This document shows, one piece after another, positions 5,143 to 54,470 of a stretch of DNA of 64,000 bases. Both the position numbers and the translations under genes were made by a program. Position 1 is the stretch's first letter. The number at the start of each line of letters is the position of its first letter. Under the pieces are notes generated by a model. That model did no database searches. It was not told the DNA's origin and worked only from the letters and a program-made list of their open reading frames with translations. Source of the stretch: an uncultured Bacteroidota bacterium (GTDB lineage Bacteria; Bacteroidota; Bacteroidia; 2-12-FULL-35-15); contig CAINDA010000045.1 of NCBI GenBank assembly GCA_903847205.1, forward strand, positions 62,001 through 126,000, given 5' to 3'.

Positions 5143-5462
5143 CCTTTTGAATTTAACGCTTTTTATCTGCAGCAAATTACAGATTTCTAAATTACAATAT
5201 TCAATTTAATACGCAGATGCAGTGCGGCTTAAAAAGGTTGTATTAAATATACCCTCTTTCGGGGTTTTATTATTCACACAGATAAAGGGAATCAGAGAAA
5301 ATTATACATCAATAAAAAATCCAGCAAGAGTCAAACACAAAATAGCCTTGAGCCTCATCCAGATTGCCTGGATTCAATAACAATATTTCTTAACGAGCCG
5401 AAATTCGCATCAGGGTATAAAACTCTAAATAAATTTGCGGAATAAAAGATTCGGAATAAAAA
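5143..5462. other. Intergenic stretch without recognised gene
   Basis: About 320 bases between the pseudogene and radC. It is AT-rich and has no ORF with coding character on either strand. A short ACCC/GGGT hairpin followed by T residues (near 5252-5270) could be a weak terminator. Nothing else is recognised. Confidence 0.4.
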
Positions 5463-36421: not shown

Positions 36422-37156
36422 TTAATTGAATTGGTAAGCGATTCCAAAATTCAAACAAACTCCCGAAATAGGCTGCTTATACTCTGTAATCAGTCTTCCT
36501 GTATTTATTACACGGTTCTCATTTGTTATTTTAAAATCAGGATTGCTGTAAAAATAATCCGCATTTAATTTAACGCTGAGATGTTTAATTATTGAATAGC
36601 GAACTCCTGCTCCTGCCTGAAATCCAAATGTATTGGCAGTAGATGATTTTTGAGAAAAAGTAACACTCGTTTGATCTTCTATGTAGGTTGTAAATTCAGG
36701 GGTTGAGGCATTCACCAATCCCCCCACAACTCTCAAATCAATCGTGAACTTTTTCATAGGAAATGAAAAATACGGCCCAATTAAAAAATTAAGGGTTGAA
36801 TACTTCCCTTTATCAGTAACGGTTGTACTGTCCACATCAAAAGCTTCTTTGTATCCATCAGCTAAAGCCTGTTTTCCCTTTGCATAAAATGATGTATTTG
36901 AAAACACACCTCCTATACCAAAGTTTTTATGGAAGAAATAAGCACCTTCTATACCCATATTCATCCCTGAAGGATTTGCAAACCCTGAATTATTGTTATT
37001 ATAATCAGATTTTGTAAAGTTTCCGCCGGCATGGGCATAACCTCCTGTAATGCCTATAAAACTTTGTGCTTTAGGTGCGTCTTCGGTTTTATCCTGTGCA
37101 AAAGACAGCGTACATATAGATGTAGCCGCTATCGTAAATATTATTATCTTTTTCAT
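36422..37156 (-). CDS. Outer membrane beta-barrel protein of the metal-receptor operon
   Basis: 244 residues: signal peptide (…SFAQ), an eight-stranded OmpA/OmpW-like barrel pattern (SFIGITGGYAHAGG, MNMGIEGAYFFHKNFGIGG, FLIGPYFSFPMKKFTIDLRVVGG, QAGAGVRYSIIKHLSVKLNADYFYS) and a C-terminal 'FGIAYQFN'. It is 14 bases after the lipoprotein gene and so part of the same transcript. A generic 'outer membrane beta-barrel' protein; may assist the receptor. Confidence 0.8.
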   Translation of the reverse strand: MKKIIIFTIAATSICTLSFAQDKTEDAPKAQSFIGITGGYAHAGGNFTKSDYNNNNSGFANPSGMNMGIEGAYFFHKNFGIGGVFSNTSFYAKGKQALADGYKEAFDVDSTTVTDKGKYSTLNFLIGPYFSFPMKKFTIDLRVVGGLVNASTPEFTTYIEDQTSVTFSQKSSTANTFGFQAGAGVRYSIIKHLSVKLNADYFYSNPDFKITNENRVINTGRLITEYKQPISGVCLNFGIAYQFN

Positions 37157-37170
37157 ATTGTTAATTTTTT

Positions 37171-37749
37171 TTAATTAGTAATATTTAATCTGAAAAACAC
37201 ATCCGAATCCGTTGAACCTGGTGCAAACGTTCCGTTTTTGCTATTGGGCTGGTGTCTTAATACACCTTCCAGCCTGCCGCTGCATACTGTTGCATCGGTT
37301 ACAAATGTATCCGCCAAGCCAATAAAAATGGGCGGAATATTGGTATCGTGATCGGTTGCAGTGATGGTTAAGTGATTGATAATACCGCCTGTTTGAAAGA
37401 ACCAATACGTGTGAAAATTCCCGCGTGCTTGTATTTCCGGTGTTATGTCCAGTGCAGGAGTTTTTGTATCATCATAAAAATGAACAGTTGCATTATAAGT
37501 TGAACTCTTTTTTATGTTTATGACTGCCAAGCTTGTATCAGGGGGATTTACACCTCCTGATAAATCTTTCCATGCTGCCCAGATTGTATCATTTGCATTG
37601 GCTGTATTTTGCAAACGGACTTTAACAGTTGTCATAAATTCATTACCGGGCACCGGAGGTGCTACCGCTTGTTCTTCTTTTTTACAGGCACTGAACATTA
37701 GCGTGCCTATGAAGGCTGTAAATAATAGCCCTTTTGTTATTTCTTTCAT
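37171..37749 (-). CDS. Lipoprotein partner of ZnuD-like TonB receptors
   Basis: 192 residues with lipobox 'FSAC' (Cys after FSA). The mature part has the pattern 'STYNATVHFYDDTKTPALDITPEI', an H-Y-F-F stretch, 'LTITATDHDTN', 'IFIGLADTF' and 'LEGVLRHQPNSKNGTFAPGSTDSDVFFRLNI'. This corresponds to the ~190-residue lipoproteins (often named 'type 1 periplasmic binding fold' in databases) that lie beside zinc-type TonB receptors in Bacteroidota. It probably captures or passes the metal on the outer surface; the function is inferred from context. Confidence 0.8.
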   Translation of the reverse strand: MKEITKGLLFTAFIGTLMFSACKKEEQAVAPPVPGNEFMTTVKVRLQNTANANDTIWAAWKDLSGGVNPPDTSLAVINIKKSSTYNATVHFYDDTKTPALDITPEIQARGNFHTYWFFQTGGIINHLTITATDHDTNIPPIFIGLADTFVTDATVCSGRLEGVLRHQPNSKNGTFAPGSTDSDVFFRLNITN

Positions 37750-38131
37750 TTTGTTTATTTTTAAATTTAGTTATATATTTTTTTTTCTGAATCATACGAA
37801 ACAATAATGGCGGTGCTCTTGCTTTTAAATGAATATGTCTTTGATAACTAATTTTGCATAGGCAAAAAAAGGATATTAATAAAATAACAGAAAGATAGAG
37901 TTGCTGAAAAAAGCATGTCAGGATAAATGATTTGTGTGTTATAAATTCACACAATACACAAGTAATAATTTTACTATGGATGTGATGATTAATTAACCTA
38001 TGATGATTCTCTTCAATAAAATTGCAAATGTTCGCAGCTTTATGATGATGAGTAAATACAATATACTGTCCCGCTGAAAAGACTGTCAGCAGAAGATAAC
38101 AATAGATGATATGGATTTTACTCTTTTGCAT
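37682..38131 (-). CDS. His/Cys-rich small protein of the metal operon (RAPP type), extended C-terminus
   Basis: 149 codons. N-terminal signal-like helix, then 'FTHHHKAANICNFIEENHHR' with a HH-Cys cluster, 'VLCEF', a second hydrophobic segment, and 'HLKARAPPL', after which similar proteins usually end (the relative at 41276-41590 ends SRAPPVI). Here the frame continues ~40 residues past RAPP and overlaps the next gene by 68 bases, so a stop was probably lost or the tail is new. Its start overlaps the TonB receptor's stop by 14 bases. Likely a periplasmic metal-binding or sensing protein. Confidence 0.65.
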   Translation of the reverse strand: MQKSKIHIIYCYLLLTVFSAGQYIVFTHHHKAANICNFIEENHHRLINHHIHSKIITCVLCEFITHKSFILTCFFQQLYLSVILLISFFCLCKISYQRHIHLKARAPPLLFRMIQKKKYITKFKNKQNERNNKRAIIYSLHRHANVQCL

Positions 38132-40475
38132 TTTTTTTATCAGTGTCGAAAACGGCGAAAGGGATTTTTAATCTCAATGTAAAATTCCGTCCAAGGTCAT
38201 TGGTATAATACCTGAACCTGTTCAGATAATCGCGGTAGGCTGTATTCATAATATTAGTTACTCCAAAACTCAAACTTATTAATTGCTGTTTTACCGGAAT
38301 AGAAAATCCTACATCTCCATTGAGGAGTGTATATCCTTTTGGCGGCGGGAGATAGTCACTGTTGGGCGGAACATGATTTTGTGTGCTTACCGTTAATACC
38401 GAAAAATTCAAATACGTTTGTTTTAATTTCCATATTTTATCTTTTGAAAAAGAGATTCCATTATCATAACGATTGGAAGGAACGTAAATTAAATACTGAT
38501 GCTGGTTTATGTCATAAGCATAAACAATTGTTGTTTTTGAAATAATGCCGATTGTTTTGGTAAGCTGGTAATTTATATTCGCATCAATTCCTGTATAATA
38601 AACATTTGTCTGCGTGTATTTGAATGCAGGAAAAACACCAGCAATAGTGGTAGCAGGAGTAGGCAGTGGCTTTAGATAAATAAAATTATCAATCACATTA
38701 AAATACCCGCCAATCTCAAAACGGAATTTTTCATTTGAGTAATTAAGATAAGCCTGTGAATTATAAGAACGTTCCGCTTTTAGCGTAGTATCGCCTATTT
38801 CAAAAGATGCAGCACTTTGATGTACGCCTAATGCAAATAATTCTATCGGTGCAGGAGGTCTCCAGCCGATACCCGCAGAAGCGTTTAAAGATAAATTATA
38901 ATTGAACTGATAAATTGCTCCTAATGTACCGCTGTTATTTTGCCAGCTGTAATCACTCGATTTTGATTTTAATGTTGTGAAATCAAGCGAATAGGTTTGC
39001 ATCCATTGATAATCATACCTTGCACCGGCTTCGATGGTTAATTTTCTTTTATTCCATTTTTCTAAAATAAATAATCCGCCTCCATAGTTTCTGTAATTAG
39101 GAATTAATGCCCTGAAATCAAGTCCTCTGAATACATTTCCTGCTGTAATAAAATTAGCGCCTATACTTCCTGTAATATGTTTTATTGGCTTATGCTCCCA
39201 AACCAGTTCTGAAGTATGCGTAAGAAGCTGAAAATAGGCATCGGGGATATTTTGGTCAACGATACTTTGGTTGTATGATAAATCTTCTCCGAATTCTGAA
39301 CGCTTATTTTCCTGTCTTGCAAAAGTGAATTCTAATTTTCCGGCCTTTGGGAAATTATAAAACGCTTTTGTTTTAATTAATTGGTGGTTTACGGTTTGGT
39401 ATCCTCTTTCAATAGTATATGAAAAATCCGATTTTACTATTGGTTCAGGGCTGTTGAATGCAAGATAAAGGTCATTCAAATTGCCAATGTGGGAGCCTGT
39501 GTAAATGCCAAGTGTTGTATTAAAGCTGCTGTAAAAAACATCTACTCCAAAATTCTTTTTACTATAAGACAATGCGGCTGAATAGTTATTTTCTTTCGTC
39601 CCCGTATTTTTCAGAAAATAAGTCGGCGTGCTGAAATTTCCACCTTCCTTAATTGTTCCTTGCACCCGCCATGATAAACCCGAAAGCTTTTTATCTAATG
39701 CTCCTTCTAAATAACCTGATGCGGTTCCTGCCCTTCCATTACTGGCTCCAACTAAATTTATTTCACCCTTCAGGCATTTAGCTGACGGCATTTCTTTGGG
39801 TTCTACCAATACTACACCGGCTATTGCATTTGTTCCGTACCTGATACTTGCTGCACCTTTAATGACGCTGAATTTAGTGGCAATAAAAGGATCTATTTCG
39901 GGTGCATGGTCGGAACCCCAAGTCTGGCTTTCAAGCCTTACTCCGTTATTCATGATTAATATTCTATTGCCGTACATCCCATGAATCATGGGCTTTGAAA
40001 TGGAGGGGCCTGTTTGAATACTGTTTACACCAGTTATAGATTTTAAAGATTCTCCCAAACTTAATCCTCTTGTTTTATCCATTTCAACACCGCTAATTTC
40101 CTCTTTTTGCAAGGTTTGTATTTCCTGTTTTTTTATAGCATGTGTTTCAATAATTGTTTCTTTCAGAAGTGTTGTATTTTCAGGCAAATCAAAATTGTAA
40201 TAACCGTTTTTATTAATTTCTAAAATGGTATCAACTGTCAAGTGTCCTATCTGACTGATTTCAACTGTGTATTTCCCCGGACATATTTTATTAATATAAA
40301 AAACACCTTTTTCATTTGCCGTTGCTCCTGTTTTTAACTCCTTCAAATAGATTGTAGAAAATGCCAAAATTTCATTCGTTTTTGAACAAGTTACTTTTCC
40401 AGAAAATGTAATATCACACTGTGAATAAGCGTGAATTGCATTTAAAAAAAATAATATAATGATGAGCCGTTTCAT
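38118..40475 (-). CDS. TonB-dependent receptor, ZnuD-like metal type
   Basis: 785 residues. After the signal peptide comes a carboxypeptidase-regulatory-like domain (~20-95: 'SGKVTCSKTNEILAFSTIYL'), then a plug with 'SITGVNSIQTGPSISKPMIHGMYGNRILIMNNGVR' and 'SQTWGSDHAPEIDPF', a close parallel of the ZnuD plug (HG-x-x-GNR...QQWGxxHAPE), then a 22-strand barrel ending in an aromatic strand. ZnuD-type receptors import zinc or heme. Its neighbours (His-rich coil, His/Cys small proteins, partner lipoprotein) agree with zinc or another divalent metal. Family secure, substrate inferred. Confidence 0.92.
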   Translation of the reverse strand: MKRLIIILFFLNAIHAYSQCDITFSGKVTCSKTNEILAFSTIYLKELKTGATANEKGVFYINKICPGKYTVEISQIGHLTVDTILEINKNGYYNFDLPENTTLLKETIIETHAIKKQEIQTLQKEEISGVEMDKTRGLSLGESLKSITGVNSIQTGPSISKPMIHGMYGNRILIMNNGVRLESQTWGSDHAPEIDPFIATKFSVIKGAASIRYGTNAIAGVVLVEPKEMPSAKCLKGEINLVGASNGRAGTASGYLEGALDKKLSGLSWRVQGTIKEGGNFSTPTYFLKNTGTKENNYSAALSYSKKNFGVDVFYSSFNTTLGIYTGSHIGNLNDLYLAFNSPEPIVKSDFSYTIERGYQTVNHQLIKTKAFYNFPKAGKLEFTFARQENKRSEFGEDLSYNQSIVDQNIPDAYFQLLTHTSELVWEHKPIKHITGSIGANFITAGNVFRGLDFRALIPNYRNYGGGLFILEKWNKRKLTIEAGARYDYQWMQTYSLDFTTLKSKSSDYSWQNNSGTLGAIYQFNYNLSLNASAGIGWRPPAPIELFALGVHQSAASFEIGDTTLKAERSYNSQAYLNYSNEKFRFEIGGYFNVIDNFIYLKPLPTPATTIAGVFPAFKYTQTNVYYTGIDANINYQLTKTIGIISKTTIVYAYDINQHQYLIYVPSNRYDNGISFSKDKIWKLKQTYLNFSVLTVSTQNHVPPNSDYLPPPKGYTLLNGDVGFSIPVKQQLISLSFGVTNIMNTAYRDYLNRFRYYTNDLGRNFTLRLKIPFAVFDTDKKNAKE

Positions 40476-40504: not shown

Positions 40505-41053
40505 TTATTTGCCATGAGCCTTTAACATTGCCTCGTGATCGGCTTTCATTTTCTCATGGTCGGCTTTCATTTGTTCGTGGCTTGTTTTAATTTCTTCAAA
40601 ATCCCTTAAAACAGCTTCATTCTGCTCCTTAATACCTAAATCTTCCATTTCCTTATTTTGATACCGCTTTTCTATTACAATTTGTTCTTCTAATAATTTT
40701 TTATGCCTCTCCATAATTGCTGCATGTTTTTGAATCATTTCTATATGCTGCCCTTCCAATTTTTTATGCTGCATATCATTTGCAGTATCTGCAACCTGCT
40801 GGTGTTGTTTAATCCATTGCTGATGCTCTGCCTCCAATTCTGAATGTTCCGATTCTAATGATGAATCCATTTGCATTAACATAATCTTACTTTCCTTTAA
40901 TTTTTCTGGAAGTGATTTACGATTGCTGATTCCATAATAAGTCCAGAGCATAATTGCCAATACCAGAAATATAAATAGTATTAAAAACTTTGCGTCATTA
41001 CCCTTTTCGGGCGACTTTTTATTTTTTTTGCTTTTTATGTACGGTTGTTTCAC
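40505..41053 (-). CDS. Membrane-anchored coiled coil with histidines at heptad spacing
   Basis: 182 residues: a basic cytoplasmic start, one transmembrane helix (~22-42), then a long coiled coil. His occurs at 70, 77, 84; 96, 103, 110, 117; and 159, 166, 173, 180, always seven apart within a group, with 117 to 159 exactly six heptads. One break (84-96) shifts register. The last part repeats 'KADHE-MKADHE'. A seven-residue His stripe on one face is unusual and would bind Zn/Cu or respond to pH. It lies 29 bases upstream of the TonB receptor gene. Possibly a periplasmic metal sponge or sensor. Confidence 0.8.
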   Translation of the reverse strand: MKQPYIKSKKNKKSPEKGNDAKFLILFIFLVLAIMLWTYYGISNRKSLPEKLKESKIMLMQMDSSLESEHSELEAEHQQWIKQHQQVADTANDMQHKKLEGQHIEMIQKHAAIMERHKKLLEEQIVIEKRYQNKEMEDLGIKEQNEAVLRDFEEIKTSHEQMKADHEKMKADHEAMLKAHGK

Positions 41054-41275
41054 AAAATTGTCTTTTGTTTTTTAGGCTGACTCCATTTCATTATTTACAT
41101 AATTGCAATAGGAGTATCAAGTAACAACGAATGCGTTATACATTCATTAAATGATAGCCAATCTATCAGCCTGAAAATTTTCAGGAAATTTGATTAATTG
41201 ATGGAAAGAATAAATACACACTCCTATTGAAAATTTTTCAATAGTTGCTTTTGTAAATAAATTTCAGAAAGGTAA

Positions 41276-41590
41276 TTAGATAACAGGAGGGGCTCTTGAG
41301 CCGGAGTTGTCAATTCTATTTAATTCGTAGATAGAATTAATAGAAGGCGTGTAAGAAAAAGAGAAACAAAATAAAGTGTATGATGCACCGATATTAGTTG
41401 AACCATCAGATGAATAAAGTGTAAAATCACAAATTCCGCAATTGTGTTCTAAATTATGAAAATGTTTGTTTTCAGAAATACAATGCGGATCACCTGCATG
41501 TTCAAGTGCATGAATCTCTTTCTCTACAATTGGGAAAAGGAAGAGCATTAAGAAGAAAACCGAAAAATATTTCTTTATAGTTTGCGACAT
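41276..41590 (-). CDS. His/Cys-rich small protein of the metal operon (RAPP type)
   Basis: 104 residues from the ATG at 41590, chosen because a TACTTTTG box lies nine bases upstream; the ATG at 41626 would lie before the promoter. N-terminal hydrophobic helix; then 'KEIHALEHAGDPHCISENKHFHNLEHNCGICDF' with seven His and three Cys (shown in two parts: HALEHAGDPHC and HFHNLEHNCGIC); C-terminus SRAPPVI. Similar in layout to the product at 37682-38131. Probable periplasmic metal-binding protein. A 223-base gap separates it from the coiled-coil gene. Confidence 0.75.
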   Translation of the reverse strand: MSQTIKKYFSVFFLMLFLFPIVEKEIHALEHAGDPHCISENKHFHNLEHNCGICDFTLYSSDGSTNIGASYTLFCFSFSYTPSINSIYELNRIDNSGSRAPPVI

Positions 41591-41598
41591 TATGAACA

Positions 41599-41606
41599 CA
41601 AAAGTA
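41599..41606 (-). promoter_or_regulatory. -7 promoter box for the RAPP-type gene
   Basis: TACTTTTG on the minus strand (TAnnTTTG), nine bases before the chosen ATG, which implies a very short leader. Confidence 0.5.
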
Positions 41607-41686
41607 GTAATTATTATTTTGGACATACTATTTTATTTCAGAGGTTTGAATGATTATAATCATTTTCAATTATTTTACATAAGTTT

Positions 41687-41948: not shown

Positions 41949-41976
41949 TCTATTTTTGCCAATAAATGAACTTTTA

Positions 41977-43461
41977 ATGGAAAATATTCTACCTATACAC
42001 TTGCAGGAGGTCATCTTTTCATCTTCAAATTCTAAAATTTCAAAACAGATTTCAAAACTGGAAAAAGAAGGCAAGCTAGTAAAAATAGCCCCCCGTATAT
42101 ATACATCAAATCTCAAAGAGTCACCTGAATCTATTATACTGCGAAATTTATTTCAGATACTGGCTCACCTATACCCTGATGCACTATTAAGCCATCGTTC
42201 TGCTTTTGAATATAAACCGACGACAGCGGGAAATATTTTCCTTACATACACCTATACCAAAAAAGTGGAACTTCCGGGAGTAACAATATCCTTTTTAAAA
42301 GGTGATGGTGCAATAGAAGGTGACAACGTAATAGCAGGAAATCTTTATGTTTCACAACAGGAAAGAGCCCTTCTTGAAAATCTGCAATCCTCAAAAAGAC
42401 CGGGTGCAAATTCAAAAACTCTTAGCATCCCTGAAATAGAAGATAAACTAGAGCAAATAATAAGAGTGCATGGGGAAGAAGGATTAAATAGCCTCAGAGA
42501 TAAAGCCCGAAAAATTTCAGAGCAGTTAAATATGCAATCTGAATTTACAAAACTGAATAAAATTATCAGTTCCTTATTATCAACAAATACCTCTAAAGCA
42601 CTTAAATCACCATTAGCATTGGCAAGGGTTTTTGGAGTTCCTTACGACCCGGCAAGGCTGACACTTTTTGAAACCCTTTTTCGTGAATTGAAACAAAAAG
42701 AGTTTCCAAATTATCCGGAGAAAAATATTACAAGAAAATCATTTCGGAATTTTGCTTTTTTTGAAAGTTATTTCTCCAATTATATTGAAGGAACCATTTT
42801 TGAATTGGATGATGCAAAAAAAATAATTGCAACACAAACACCTATACCTGCTCGTGATGAAGATTCACATGATGTATTAGGCACATATCAGTTGGTTTCA
42901 AATCATGCTGAAATGAGCATAACTCCTTCCTCACCGGAAGAACTGATTCAAATACTGTTATTCCGGCATAAAATTTTACTTGGCGCAAGACAAAATAAAA
43001 ATCCCGGACAATTCAAGGACAAAAATAACCGTGCAGGACAATCTCATTTTGTAGATTTAAACTTAGTGCGCGGCACATTAATGAAAGGATTTGAATTTTG
43101 TCCCGCCCTAACCCATCCCTTTGCAAAAGCAATTTTCATGATGTTTGTAGTAAGTGAAGTCCATCCTTTTTTAGATGGTAATGGAAGGATTGCAAGGGTA
43201 ATGATGAATGCGGAACTGGTAAAAGAAAACCAAAGTAAAATAATAATCCCAACCGTGTTCCGTGACGATTATATGGGAGCGCTGAAAAAATTAACAAAAC
43301 AATCTGATGCCGGAACTTTTATAAGAATGATGGAACGGGCACGCGAATTCAGCGCAGCTATTTACAGTGAAGACATGGATAAAATGGAAAAACAGTTAGA
43401 AGATTGTGATGCCTTCAAAGAACATAATGAAGGGAAACTTAAAATTATTCCTTACGGCTAA
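41977..43461 (+). CDS. AbiEi-like winged helix fused to Fic domain
   Basis: 494 residues from the ATG at 41977 (a TTG at 41956 would add seven). Residues ~1-190 resemble an AbiEi-type antitoxin/regulator: winged helix 'ISKQISKLEKEGKLVKIAPRIYTS', then 'HRSAFEYK...GNIFLTYTYTK' and 'GNLYVSQQERALLENL'. Residues ~240-460 are a Fic domain with an N-terminal inhibitory motif (SNYIEG, 267-272, matching S/T-x3-E-G/N) and the catalytic HPFLDGNGR (396-404). Fic enzymes AMPylate proteins. The self-inhibiting class II layout plus a DNA-binding head suggests an autoregulated single-gene defence or toxin module. Strong terminator follows. Confidence 0.88.
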   Translation: MENILPIHLQEVIFSSSNSKISKQISKLEKEGKLVKIAPRIYTSNLKESPESIILRNLFQILAHLYPDALLSHRSAFEYKPTTAGNIFLTYTYTKKVELPGVTISFLKGDGAIEGDNVIAGNLYVSQQERALLENLQSSKRPGANSKTLSIPEIEDKLEQIIRVHGEEGLNSLRDKARKISEQLNMQSEFTKLNKIISSLLSTNTSKALKSPLALARVFGVPYDPARLTLFETLFRELKQKEFPNYPEKNITRKSFRNFAFFESYFSNYIEGTIFELDDAKKIIATQTPIPARDEDSHDVLGTYQLVSNHAEMSITPSSPEELIQILLFRHKILLGARQNKNPGQFKDKNNRAGQSHFVDLNLVRGTLMKGFEFCPALTHPFAKAIFMMFVVSEVHPFLDGNGRIARVMMNAELVKENQSKIIIPTVFRDDYMGALKKLTKQSDAGTFIRMMERAREFSAAIYSEDMDKMEKQLEDCDAFKEHNEGKLKIIPYG

Positions 43462-44692: not shown

Positions 44693-46103
44693 TTTATCCC
44701 AAATTACGCAATAGAAAAAAATATTTAATTTGGTTTAAAATTTCTAATGCTTAGCGTTAGACAAAATTGCACAATGGAATTAGATATACGCTATACCAAT
44801 AAAGAGATTACGCCATGGGGTGGAATGATTTTTTTGAAGCAAATGTTGAAAAAAATTGGGTTTAGAGAACTCATTCAACAAAATCCTGACTTGCCGCAAC
44901 CGGGTTCAAATCGAGGTTATATAACTTCAACCATTATAGAGGGATTCATCACCAGCATATGGTGCGGGGCTAATCGTTTTCTTCACACAGAAGTTACGCG
45001 TCACGATTTAACATTAGGTAAAATATTTGATTGGAAAAATACACCTGGACAAGATACCTACAAACGGTTTTTCTCTAAATTCAACCAAGCGATTAATCAA
45101 AAAGTAAGTGATTGTTTTTACTCTTGGATATTTGATAATTTCAAGTTTGACAATTTTACTTTAGACATTGATTCCTCTGTAATGACACGTTATGGGCAGC
45201 AAGAAGGAGCAAAAAATGGATATAATCCAAACAAAAAAGGCCGAGCATCCCATCATCCGCTTATTGCTTTTATTGCGGATGTAAAGCTGGTTGCCAATAT
45301 GTGGCTGCGAAGTGGCGACACGTCTTCGGCTAATAATTTTCTGAGTTTTTTAGAAGACACCTTATCAAAATTGAAGCACAAAACTGTTAGTTTAATCCGG
45401 TTAGATAGCGGCTTTTTTCAATCTGACATTTTAGATTATTTAGAGGAAAAATTAATGAATTATATTGTTGCCGTTAAGTTCACACATCCTATACAAAGGC
45501 TTATTCATGCCAGTAATAACTGGATAGTGTTAGATACAGGAATTGAAATTTGTGAGCAAATGTATCAAAGTGATTCATGGAATAAATCGCGAAGGATAGT
45601 TATTGTCAGGCAAAGGATAAAAGACAGACCACAGGCTGCCGGAAAACAATTAGGATTGTTTTTGGAAGAAGAAATTCATAAAAACTATCGATATTCTGCA
45701 TATGTAACAAATATGAAACTTGCTCCGGCAGAGATTTGGCGGCTTTATAGAGGAAGAGGTGATGCTGAGAATAGAATCAAAGAATTGAAATACGATTTTG
45801 GCTTTGACAGCTTCAATCTCAGAGACTTTTATGCCACTGAAGCGGCATTGACTTTTGCAATGATAGCTTATAATTTGATGGCACTTTTTAGAACTTTTAT
45901 TCTACAAGAAAAAACTCAAAGAACATTATCAACTTTACGATACAGAACTTTTGCTATTGGTGCTTACTTTGAAAAAATAAATGGTAAAATAGTTCTAAAA
46001 ATAGCACTAAATAAGAAAAGGCGTGCTTGGTTTTCTGGAATATGGAATCATTCAAAATTGTTTGAATTTCCTTTTCATTTTTCTAATGCGTAATCTGGGA
46101 TAA
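44693..46103 (+). mobile_element. IS1380-family insertion sequence
   Basis: About 1.41 kb. Terminal inverted repeats: TTTATCCCAAATTACGCAAT at the left (44693) and the matching TTTATCCCAGATTACGCATT read inward from 46103, 24 of about 27 positions agreeing. One transposase gene is inside. No clear target duplication is visible. The right end lies in the 3' part of the S74 chaperone gene, which it truncates. Confidence 0.85.
44774..46093 (+). CDS. IS1380-family transposase
   Basis: 439 residues from the ATG at 44774 (MELDIRYTNKEITPWGG, the usual family start); a further-upstream ATG at 44747 lies near the repeat. DDE residues lie in 'TLDIDSSVMTRYG', 'IRLDSGFF' and 'YRGRGDAENRIKELKYDF'. The frame is intact from end to end, so the element may still be active. 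It overlaps the right inverted repeat by a few codons. Confidence 0.93.
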   Translation: MELDIRYTNKEITPWGGMIFLKQMLKKIGFRELIQQNPDLPQPGSNRGYITSTIIEGFITSIWCGANRFLHTEVTRHDLTLGKIFDWKNTPGQDTYKRFFSKFNQAINQKVSDCFYSWIFDNFKFDNFTLDIDSSVMTRYGQQEGAKNGYNPNKKGRASHHPLIAFIADVKLVANMWLRSGDTSSANNFLSFLEDTLSKLKHKTVSLIRLDSGFFQSDILDYLEEKLMNYIVAVKFTHPIQRLIHASNNWIVLDTGIEICEQMYQSDSWNKSRRIVIVRQRIKDRPQAAGKQLGLFLEEEIHKNYRYSAYVTNMKLAPAEIWRLYRGRGDAENRIKELKYDFGFDSFNLRDFYATEAALTFAMIAYNLMALFRTFILQEKTQRTLSTLRYRTFAIGAYFEKINGKIVLKIALNKKRRAWFSGIWNHSKLFEFPFHFSNA

Positions 46104-53845: not shown

Positions 53846-53924
53846 TCCTCTCATTCATTGTGAATATCTTTAAAAGCGGATACCGATAATTTTTGTATTT
53901 TTATACCTTAAATTTTTGAAGCAG

Positions 53925-54470
53925 ATGCCGATTGCTAATACCAAAGAAACTGTAAAACAAATTTTTGCAGATTACCTTTCTATACATGGCCACCGTAAAA
54001 CTCCTGAACGGTTTGCTATTTTAGGCGAAATATATGCTCAAAACGGACATTTTGATATTGAGTCGCTTTTTGTACAGATGAAAAACAAAAAATATCGTGT
54101 ATGCCGTGCTACACTGTATAATACCATTGAGTTATTACTTAATTGCAGTTTAGTTACAAAACATCAGTTTGGAAGAAACTTAGCACTTTTTGAAAAATCA
54201 CATGAGTTCAAACAGCACGATCATTTGATATGTCTGGATTGCGAAAAGGTATTTGAATTCTGTGACCCGAGACTGCAGCAGATTCAAAAAACAGCAGGAG
54301 ATATTTTAGGATTTAAAATTGATCACCATTCACTTAATTTATTCGGGAAATGCAGTAAGCTGGCTAAAAATGAAGTTTGCGAGCATAAAAAAGCAAAGGA
54401 TAAATTAAACACTCCTTTGCCTGCTTCCAGTAAAGAGAAGCCTCAGTTAAAAGCAGTTAAAATAAAATAG
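53925..54470 (+). CDS. fur: Fur-family metal-dependent repressor
   Basis: 181 residues from the ATG at 53925; a TTG at 53916 would add three. Fur fold: winged helix '[26 protein letters not shown]', '[19 protein letters not shown]', then the dimer domain with [18 protein letters not shown] (metal-binding His and the CxxC pair) and a second Cys pair in the tail ([14 protein letters not shown]). The C-terminal ~25 residues are a Lys-rich extension. It represses iron-uptake genes (or a related metal). Which metal this copy senses is not determined by sequence. Confidence 0.9.

Follow-up and report, generated by a model that had tools for sequence, protein, structure and literature searches.

Histidine heptads in a family of exported Bacteroidota proteins: a putative metal-binding three-helix bundle

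The window analysed here, a stretch of 64,000 nucleotides from an uncultured Bacteroidota bacterium, carries on its minus strand a putative operon, defined by gene spacing, that extends from 41626 to 36422. Its probable first gene (41276..41626) encodes a small His/Cys protein of 116 aa with related ORFs at loci L017, L052 and L053. It is followed by a membrane-anchored protein of 182 aa with 11 histidines (40505..41053, start codon GTG; hereafter the His-heptad protein), delineated from its ORF and its homologues, and by a TonB-dependent receptor of 785 aa (38118..40475, with Pfam plug and barrel domains), whose ORF indeed starts 29 bases downstream, as proposed in the sequence-only reading. 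The cluster continues with a second small His/Cys protein of 149 aa (37682..38131; a similar ORF follows the receptor in L053) and with a lipoprotein, CL1 (37171..37749), which accompanies the receptor in all five further genomes where receptor and His gene co-occur, and which matches seven of the 36 genomes of the genus. An outer-membrane beta-barrel protein (36422..37156; PF13505, E 4e-11; related ORFs in L017, L052 and L053) is the last gene. Neither small His/Cys protein matched a Pfam family above cut-off, and the first one matched no NCBIfam family.

A perfect palindrome of 16 bases (41649..41664, unstranded) lies 22 bases before the first gene and is a possible operator for this cluster; since the genome has no second copy within one mismatch, it was rejected as a genome-wide operator. 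The His gene is preceded by a gap of 222 bases with two further palindromes (41221-41247 and 41169-41186), possibly operators or terminators. At locus L053, a 29-base palindrome with one mismatch, different in sequence from that of the window, is located upstream of position 5239, before the first gene of the operon of genome G032. The genome of the window has one Fur-family gene, at 53988-54341 (ORF 53916..54470, plus strand), approximately 12 kb away from the window operon; for cobW, it has two hits of low score (36.7 and 35.9 bits). A transposase ORF (44747-46093; PF13701, E 4.6e-51) lies approximately 3 kb from this patchily distributed operon, with a Fic-family gene (41956-43461) in between.

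The earlier description of the receptor as ZnuD-like is supported by its best PDB sequence match, ZnuD (4rdr, E 7.9e-20), the weaker matches including the copper porin OprC (E 1.7e-7). ZnuD is also its best NCBIfam match, with a score (127.9 bits) far below the cut-off of 950. Among the four receptors of this group that were scanned, ZnuD ranked first for those of the window and L055, and TonB-hemin for those of L017 and L127, all four remaining far below cut-offs.

The histidines of the His-heptad protein had been placed at residues 70/77/84, 96/103/110/117 and 159/166/173/180, in strict steps of seven within each run, and the translated ORF bears this out. Eight histidine pairs lie at +7, a number reached in none of 100,000 shuffles of residues 61-182, and only four of 100,000 such shuffles equalled the eight histidines that fall into a single class modulo 7. 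However, the claim that all 11 histidines occupy one heptad position does not hold: the residue number modulo 7 is 0 for His 70/77/84 and 5 for the remaining eight, and two registers result because 84 and 96 are 12 residues apart. Likewise, the 42-residue step from 117 to 159, which had been counted as part of one coil, spans a predicted turn. The HxxM motif occurs four times (five to eight times in full family members), and the longer motif HxxMxxxHxxM is present as H159-M162-H166-M169-H173-M176. The His-heptad feature is real, and more pronounced in the relatives than in the window protein.

These relatives form an unnamed family, mostly lipoproteins, of which the window protein is a reduced member. 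A single-sequence search yielded matches in nine of 148 relatives, strong outside the window's own genome in G086 and G032 only, and a scan of genome contigs gave five loci (L017-L021). Profile searches matched 23 of 395 genomes across the phylum (E 1e-5), three of 197 in the class of G406 (E 1e-8), nine of 395 in the window's class (E 1e-10) and three of 36 in the order (E 1e-8), these 36 all belonging to the window's genus and two of the three (G000 and G032) being accepted. The few genomes matched by profiles in phylum, class and order indicate a patchy gene. From the phylum search, we dropped four of the 23 genomes (G404, G254, G269 and G293) and secondary hits in G000, G419 and G520, judged to be other coiled coils, broken frames or duplicates; L010-L015 were dropped from the single-sequence search, G004 from the order search (internal stop) and G692 from the class search (same match as L017, on a contig of equal length). 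The final set comprises 30 proteins from 29 Bacteroidota genomes, all of them used in the layer tests described below and 25 in the spacing test. Plasmids gave no match to the window protein, and L018 and L020 as queries retrieved one Persicobacter record, left outside the set, whose neighbourhood showed no metal gene on reading. As anticipated, no named family applies: the window protein, L018 and L020 all score below family cut-offs in Pfam and NCBIfam, and a literature search of titles and abstract openings returned no description of a His-heptad family or of a Bacteroidota Zur regulon.

A simple lipobox pattern fits 19 of the 25 family proteins, and in the window protein and one G032 copy the sequence has a membrane helix in its place. 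Seven-step histidine pairs exceed chance in 23 of the 25 (at most one in 5,000 shuffles has as many). The two others, L053b and L071, show no excess over shuffles; they are homologues of the kind that, according to the sequence-only reading, would speak against it, namely with the coil kept and the spacing lost, while the other 23 keep the spacing. L053b, with five histidines and a membrane anchor, belongs to a pair of overlapping tandem copies in G032 (L053, 5785-6829), where it follows a lipoprotein with 14 histidines in the same operon. It is as if one loaded copy sufficed, in what is a single case.

The fullest members have 16-19 histidines in three heptad blocks, the first two with about six in step and the third with four to six. 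The break between the first and second blocks measures 9-12 where the flanking histidines are intact, and that between the second and third, of 14, was seen in all eight of the fullest members examined. For histidines with a partner seven residues away, the residue at +3 is L, I, V, M, F or W in 86% of cases, compared with 41% at +4, so that the histidine occupies the centre of the hydrophobic face, as heptad position a, +3 being d. In each block of the fullest members, position d is mostly Met, Leu or Ile. Several lineages have Tyr, Asp, Asn or other residues in place of heptad histidines.

AlphaFold models of the window protein and of L020 were built with six aligned sequences (mean pLDDT 84.6 and pTM 0.67 for the former, 82.9 and 0.68 for the latter). 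In the window protein, a single N-terminal hydrophobic helix at residues 20-43 (40925..40996, minus strand) agrees with the one membrane anchor proposed earlier. It is followed by three predicted helices, all encoded on the minus strand: helix 1 (residues 48-86; 40796..40912) with His 70/77/84, helix 2 (residues 90-132; 40658..40786) with His 96/103/110/117, and helix 3 (residues 138-181; 40511..40642) with His 159/166/173/180 and three HxxM motifs. The three histidine runs are thus parted by predicted turns at 87-89 and 133-137. In the L020 model, the helices span 29-69, 76-114 and 120-168, after a signal peptide. The two registers and the two predicted turns led us to reject a continuous histidine rod; rather than a rod with one histidine face, the predicted fold and the co-loss of histidines presented below favour a three-helix bundle, whose histidines, judging from the sequence, would face inwards.

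Foldseek with the window protein model gave no match at E 0.001. VIA-align with the L020 model returned many helical matches (Z up to 11.9, a range which the tool calls common for helical bundles), including 9rgz, a designed coiled coil of three antiparallel helices (Z 10.7; 2.0 A over 97 residues). A sequence search of solved structures (alignment A2) gave a kinesin coiled coil as best match (E 0.0036) and the designed copper coiled coil 8vhs at E 0.27, both set aside as relatives and ascribed to general coil similarity.

For the layer tests, 18 histidine positions were placed on L020 and we asked whether histidines were kept or lost jointly across helices, helix 2 being read backwards since the helices are taken to run up-down-up. 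A first register, A, was read off the helix ends in the model and comprises five layers. Its agreement ranks 141 of 14,400 assignments. Among 150 layers, 82 have three histidines and 13 have none, a total of 95 against 76.6 expected that was reached in none of 5,000 within-helix shuffles and, once the set was thinned to 21 sequences with less than 50% identity, in five of 5,000. In this register, the pairing of helices 2 and 3 is unremarkable (31 of 120 permutations are equally good), and moving by one heptad improves the fit. Register B, which was picked once the result for A was known, applies this shift to helix 3 and comprises six layers. None of 20,000 random joint pairings equals it, whether in the full or the thinned set; when the helices are taken two at a time, 6, 2 and 2 of 720 permutations do as well, and the correlation within layers is 0.42, compared with 0.06-0.32 at other offsets. 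All these layer counts are not to be taken as probabilities, because common descent and a shared conservation gradient contribute to them.

With helix 2 unreversed, the highest correlation was 0.53, obtained at offsets of five, where few end-to-end pairs exist. The conservation profiles of helices 1 and 2 correlate at r 0.80 when helix 2 is reversed and at -0.21 when it is not (0.70 and 0.03 in the thinned set). When register B is applied to the window protein, three of the six layers are complete, one holds a pair and two are empty, which accounts for its 11 histidines (3x3+2). This co-loss suggests that one histidine per helix may meet in stacked tris-histidine layers.

The genomic context of the family points to metals in a minority of genomes. 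Receptor, CL1 relative and His gene occur together in six of the 29 genomes (the window, L017, L052, L053, L055 and L127), the same receptor being present in the last five at 34-84% identity over 761-782 residues. In L055, 44 bases separate the end of a COG0523 GTPase gene from the His gene that follows; in L017, the His gene overlaps at its end with a cation-efflux gene; and in L127, the receptor is preceded by a heavy-metal-associated-domain-like ORF (24.0 bits, cut-off 24.8). With L018 and L019, presented below, eight genomes have metal neighbours, and L058 is a ninth, with a cation-efflux gene approximately 4 kb away. In the other 20 genomes, where neighbours were judged by clustering and reading, no metal neighbour was recognised; L129 has an unrelated TonB receptor approximately 4 kb away. 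ZnuA was not found in eight of nine His-gene genomes searched, a count which, for want of a matched control group, carries no inference.

In L018 and L019, the His gene shares a candidate operator with zinc-starvation genes, the sites that precede it being AATGCAATATAATTGCATT and AATGCAACATTGTTGCATT, respectively. The exact pattern ATGCAAN5TTGCAT has three sites in G525 (the genome of L018): one before MerC, pyridine-nucleotide oxidoreductase and Fur-family genes, one before the His gene and one before a ZigA-like GTPase gene (566 bits, cut-off 600). In G526 (the genome of L019), MerC and the His gene have an exact site between them. A variant with two mismatches, AATGCAACAATGTTGCAAA, precedes genes for a GTPase resembling ZigA (567 bits) and for a protein resembling AztD (PDB AztD, E 4.6e-18; NCBIfam 103 bits, cut-off 400). 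The pattern written backwards, used as a control, has no site in G525 and G526 and one each in G032 and G527. The palindrome may be bound by Zur. Further copies with one mismatch, at 2661 and 8564 of L018, precede one ORF of outer-membrane type and one for an ABC ATPase, and mark possible extra regulon members; in G526, the exact short box also occurs directly before an M28-peptidase gene (L110, 1500).

The exact pattern is absent from G032, G086, G414 and G527, and all of its sites in G000 (two) and G406 (three) are away from the His gene. With the longer box at up to one mismatch, only two of the 29 genomes have a site near the His gene, which rules it out as a general feature of the family, and at the same tolerance the window, and hence its operon, has none.

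In our reading, which we hold to be about as apt to prove right as wrong, the His-heptad protein is exported, stays tethered to the membrane and binds metal, with zinc as the likeliest candidate. Of the periplasmic zinc- or copper-binding rod first proposed, the metal binding fits the histidine pattern, and also the zinc-type neighbours behind the shared palindrome in two relatives, whereas the rod shape is to be abandoned. Zinc is favoured because these boxed neighbours are of zinc type and because a single histidine at position a of designed three-stranded coiled coils binds zinc, as Zn(His)3 (available text of PMC13262294). Against it stand the absence of the box at the window operon and its presence near the His gene in only two of 29 genomes, the frequent Met at position d, which suits soft metals, and the scores of the ZigA, AztD and ZnuD relatives, below NCBIfam cut-offs. 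The single Fur-family gene and the weak cobW hits in the genome of the window, the 20 genomes with no recognised metal neighbour, the unremarkable pairing of helices 2 and 3 in register A and the two homologues without the spacing also count against it.

According to this zinc reading, the three helices would pack up-down-up, one histidine from each meeting in every layer, so that tris-histidine sites are stacked on one another; the window protein would have three such layers complete and full members as many as six. With imidazoles inside its core, the apo form would be loose and would tighten upon metal binding. The bundle may hold metal brought in by the ZnuD-like receptor and then pass it on, and in some relatives it could be produced under zinc shortage via a Zur-like regulator. 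TonB receptors under Zur control are usual, as far as the available text of PMC6103462 goes; the receptor adjoining the His gene resembles such uptake systems in its best PDB match and departs from them in its low NCBIfam score.

Copper or silver is the main rival to zinc. Here, the protein would be a Cu(I)/Ag(I) sponge like SilE and PcoE, chelating soft metals through i/i+3 His-Met pairs on one helix, turning from a loose chain into a helix and serving copper or silver tolerance or copper supply. As described in the accessible portions of PMC5008109 and PMC10080550, SilE can bind as many as eight Ag+, six Cu2+, five Zn2+ and two Ni2+ and folds on Ag+. In common with the present family, SilE and PcoE are exported and His/Met-rich, and have HxxMxxxHxxM heptads and a proposed folding on metal, SilE motif 2 (HxxMxxxHxxM) showing the same a/d heptad (PMC5008109, available text). 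The HxxM counts of the window protein and of full members, the OprC match of the receptor and the heavy-metal-associated-domain-like ORF of L127 point the same way. However, many d positions hold Leu or Ile, the boxed neighbours are of zinc type, the receptor is far closer to ZnuD than to OprC, and no SilE model was found for the window protein, L018 or L020 in an NCBIfam scan at E 0.1. Moreover, SilE has ten histidines in short motifs and acts in silver and copper resistance, whereas the present family has up to 18-19 histidines in three long heptad blocks, consists mostly of lipoproteins and lies beside zinc-type or receptor genes. We consider a copper or silver sponge improbable, albeit a serious contender.

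Somewhat less probable still is a mainly structural or pH-responsive role of the heptad histidines, in which buried polar residues of a coiled lipoprotein would set helix number, orientation or pH-dependent unfolding and metal would play no part. The 20 genomes with no recognised metal neighbour and the fact that several lineages have residues such as Tyr, Asp or Asn instead of His would suit it, but packing alone hardly explains up to 19 histidines at one heptad position that are lost by layer, nor does it explain a metal context that recurs in several lineages. A bundle that binds or relays haem and works with a haem-type receptor, suggested by the TonB-hemin matches of two of the four receptors and by haem-binding designed bundles among the structural matches, is very unlikely, given that ZnuD ranks first for the other two receptors, that the helical matches fall within the range called common and that one histidine per helix per heptad would leave little room for a porphyrin.

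Returning to zinc, designed tris-His coils likewise have histidines at heptad a facing a three-helix core; they are parallel, with a single layer of histidines from three chains, as set out in the consulted part of PMC13262294, whereas the family is natural, single-chain and predicted to be antiparallel, with several putative layers. ZrlA of Acinetobacter offers a natural comparison, as a zinc-controlled, Zur-regulated lipoprotein gene beside a putative GTPase gene, but it is a 227-aa M15-type peptidase and heptad histidines are not among the features described in the available text of PMC7812711. Exported His/Met metal sponges are a kind already known, and the present protein is probably a metal-binding sponge with a layout known mainly from engineered proteins; this layout, if confirmed, would be unusual in nature. 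In its fullest and most tentative form, our proposal is a natural single-chain histidine ladder, antiparallel, with up to six tris-His layers, folding while it loads zinc. We deem this form less likely than not; it would be a counterpart of designed Zn(His)3 coils and would give the Bacteroidota a new kind of periplasmic store or relay for zinc as part of their response to zinc starvation.

The analysis offers a candidate zinc-response operator for two Bacteroidota lineages and names a gene cluster (receptor, CL1 lipoprotein and His bundle) whose metal is directly testable. Natural members without whole layers provide a ready set of variants on how many sites the bundle needs. If the proposal is true, nature would handle metals with the layered architecture of engineered metallo-coiled coils, repeated over several layers.
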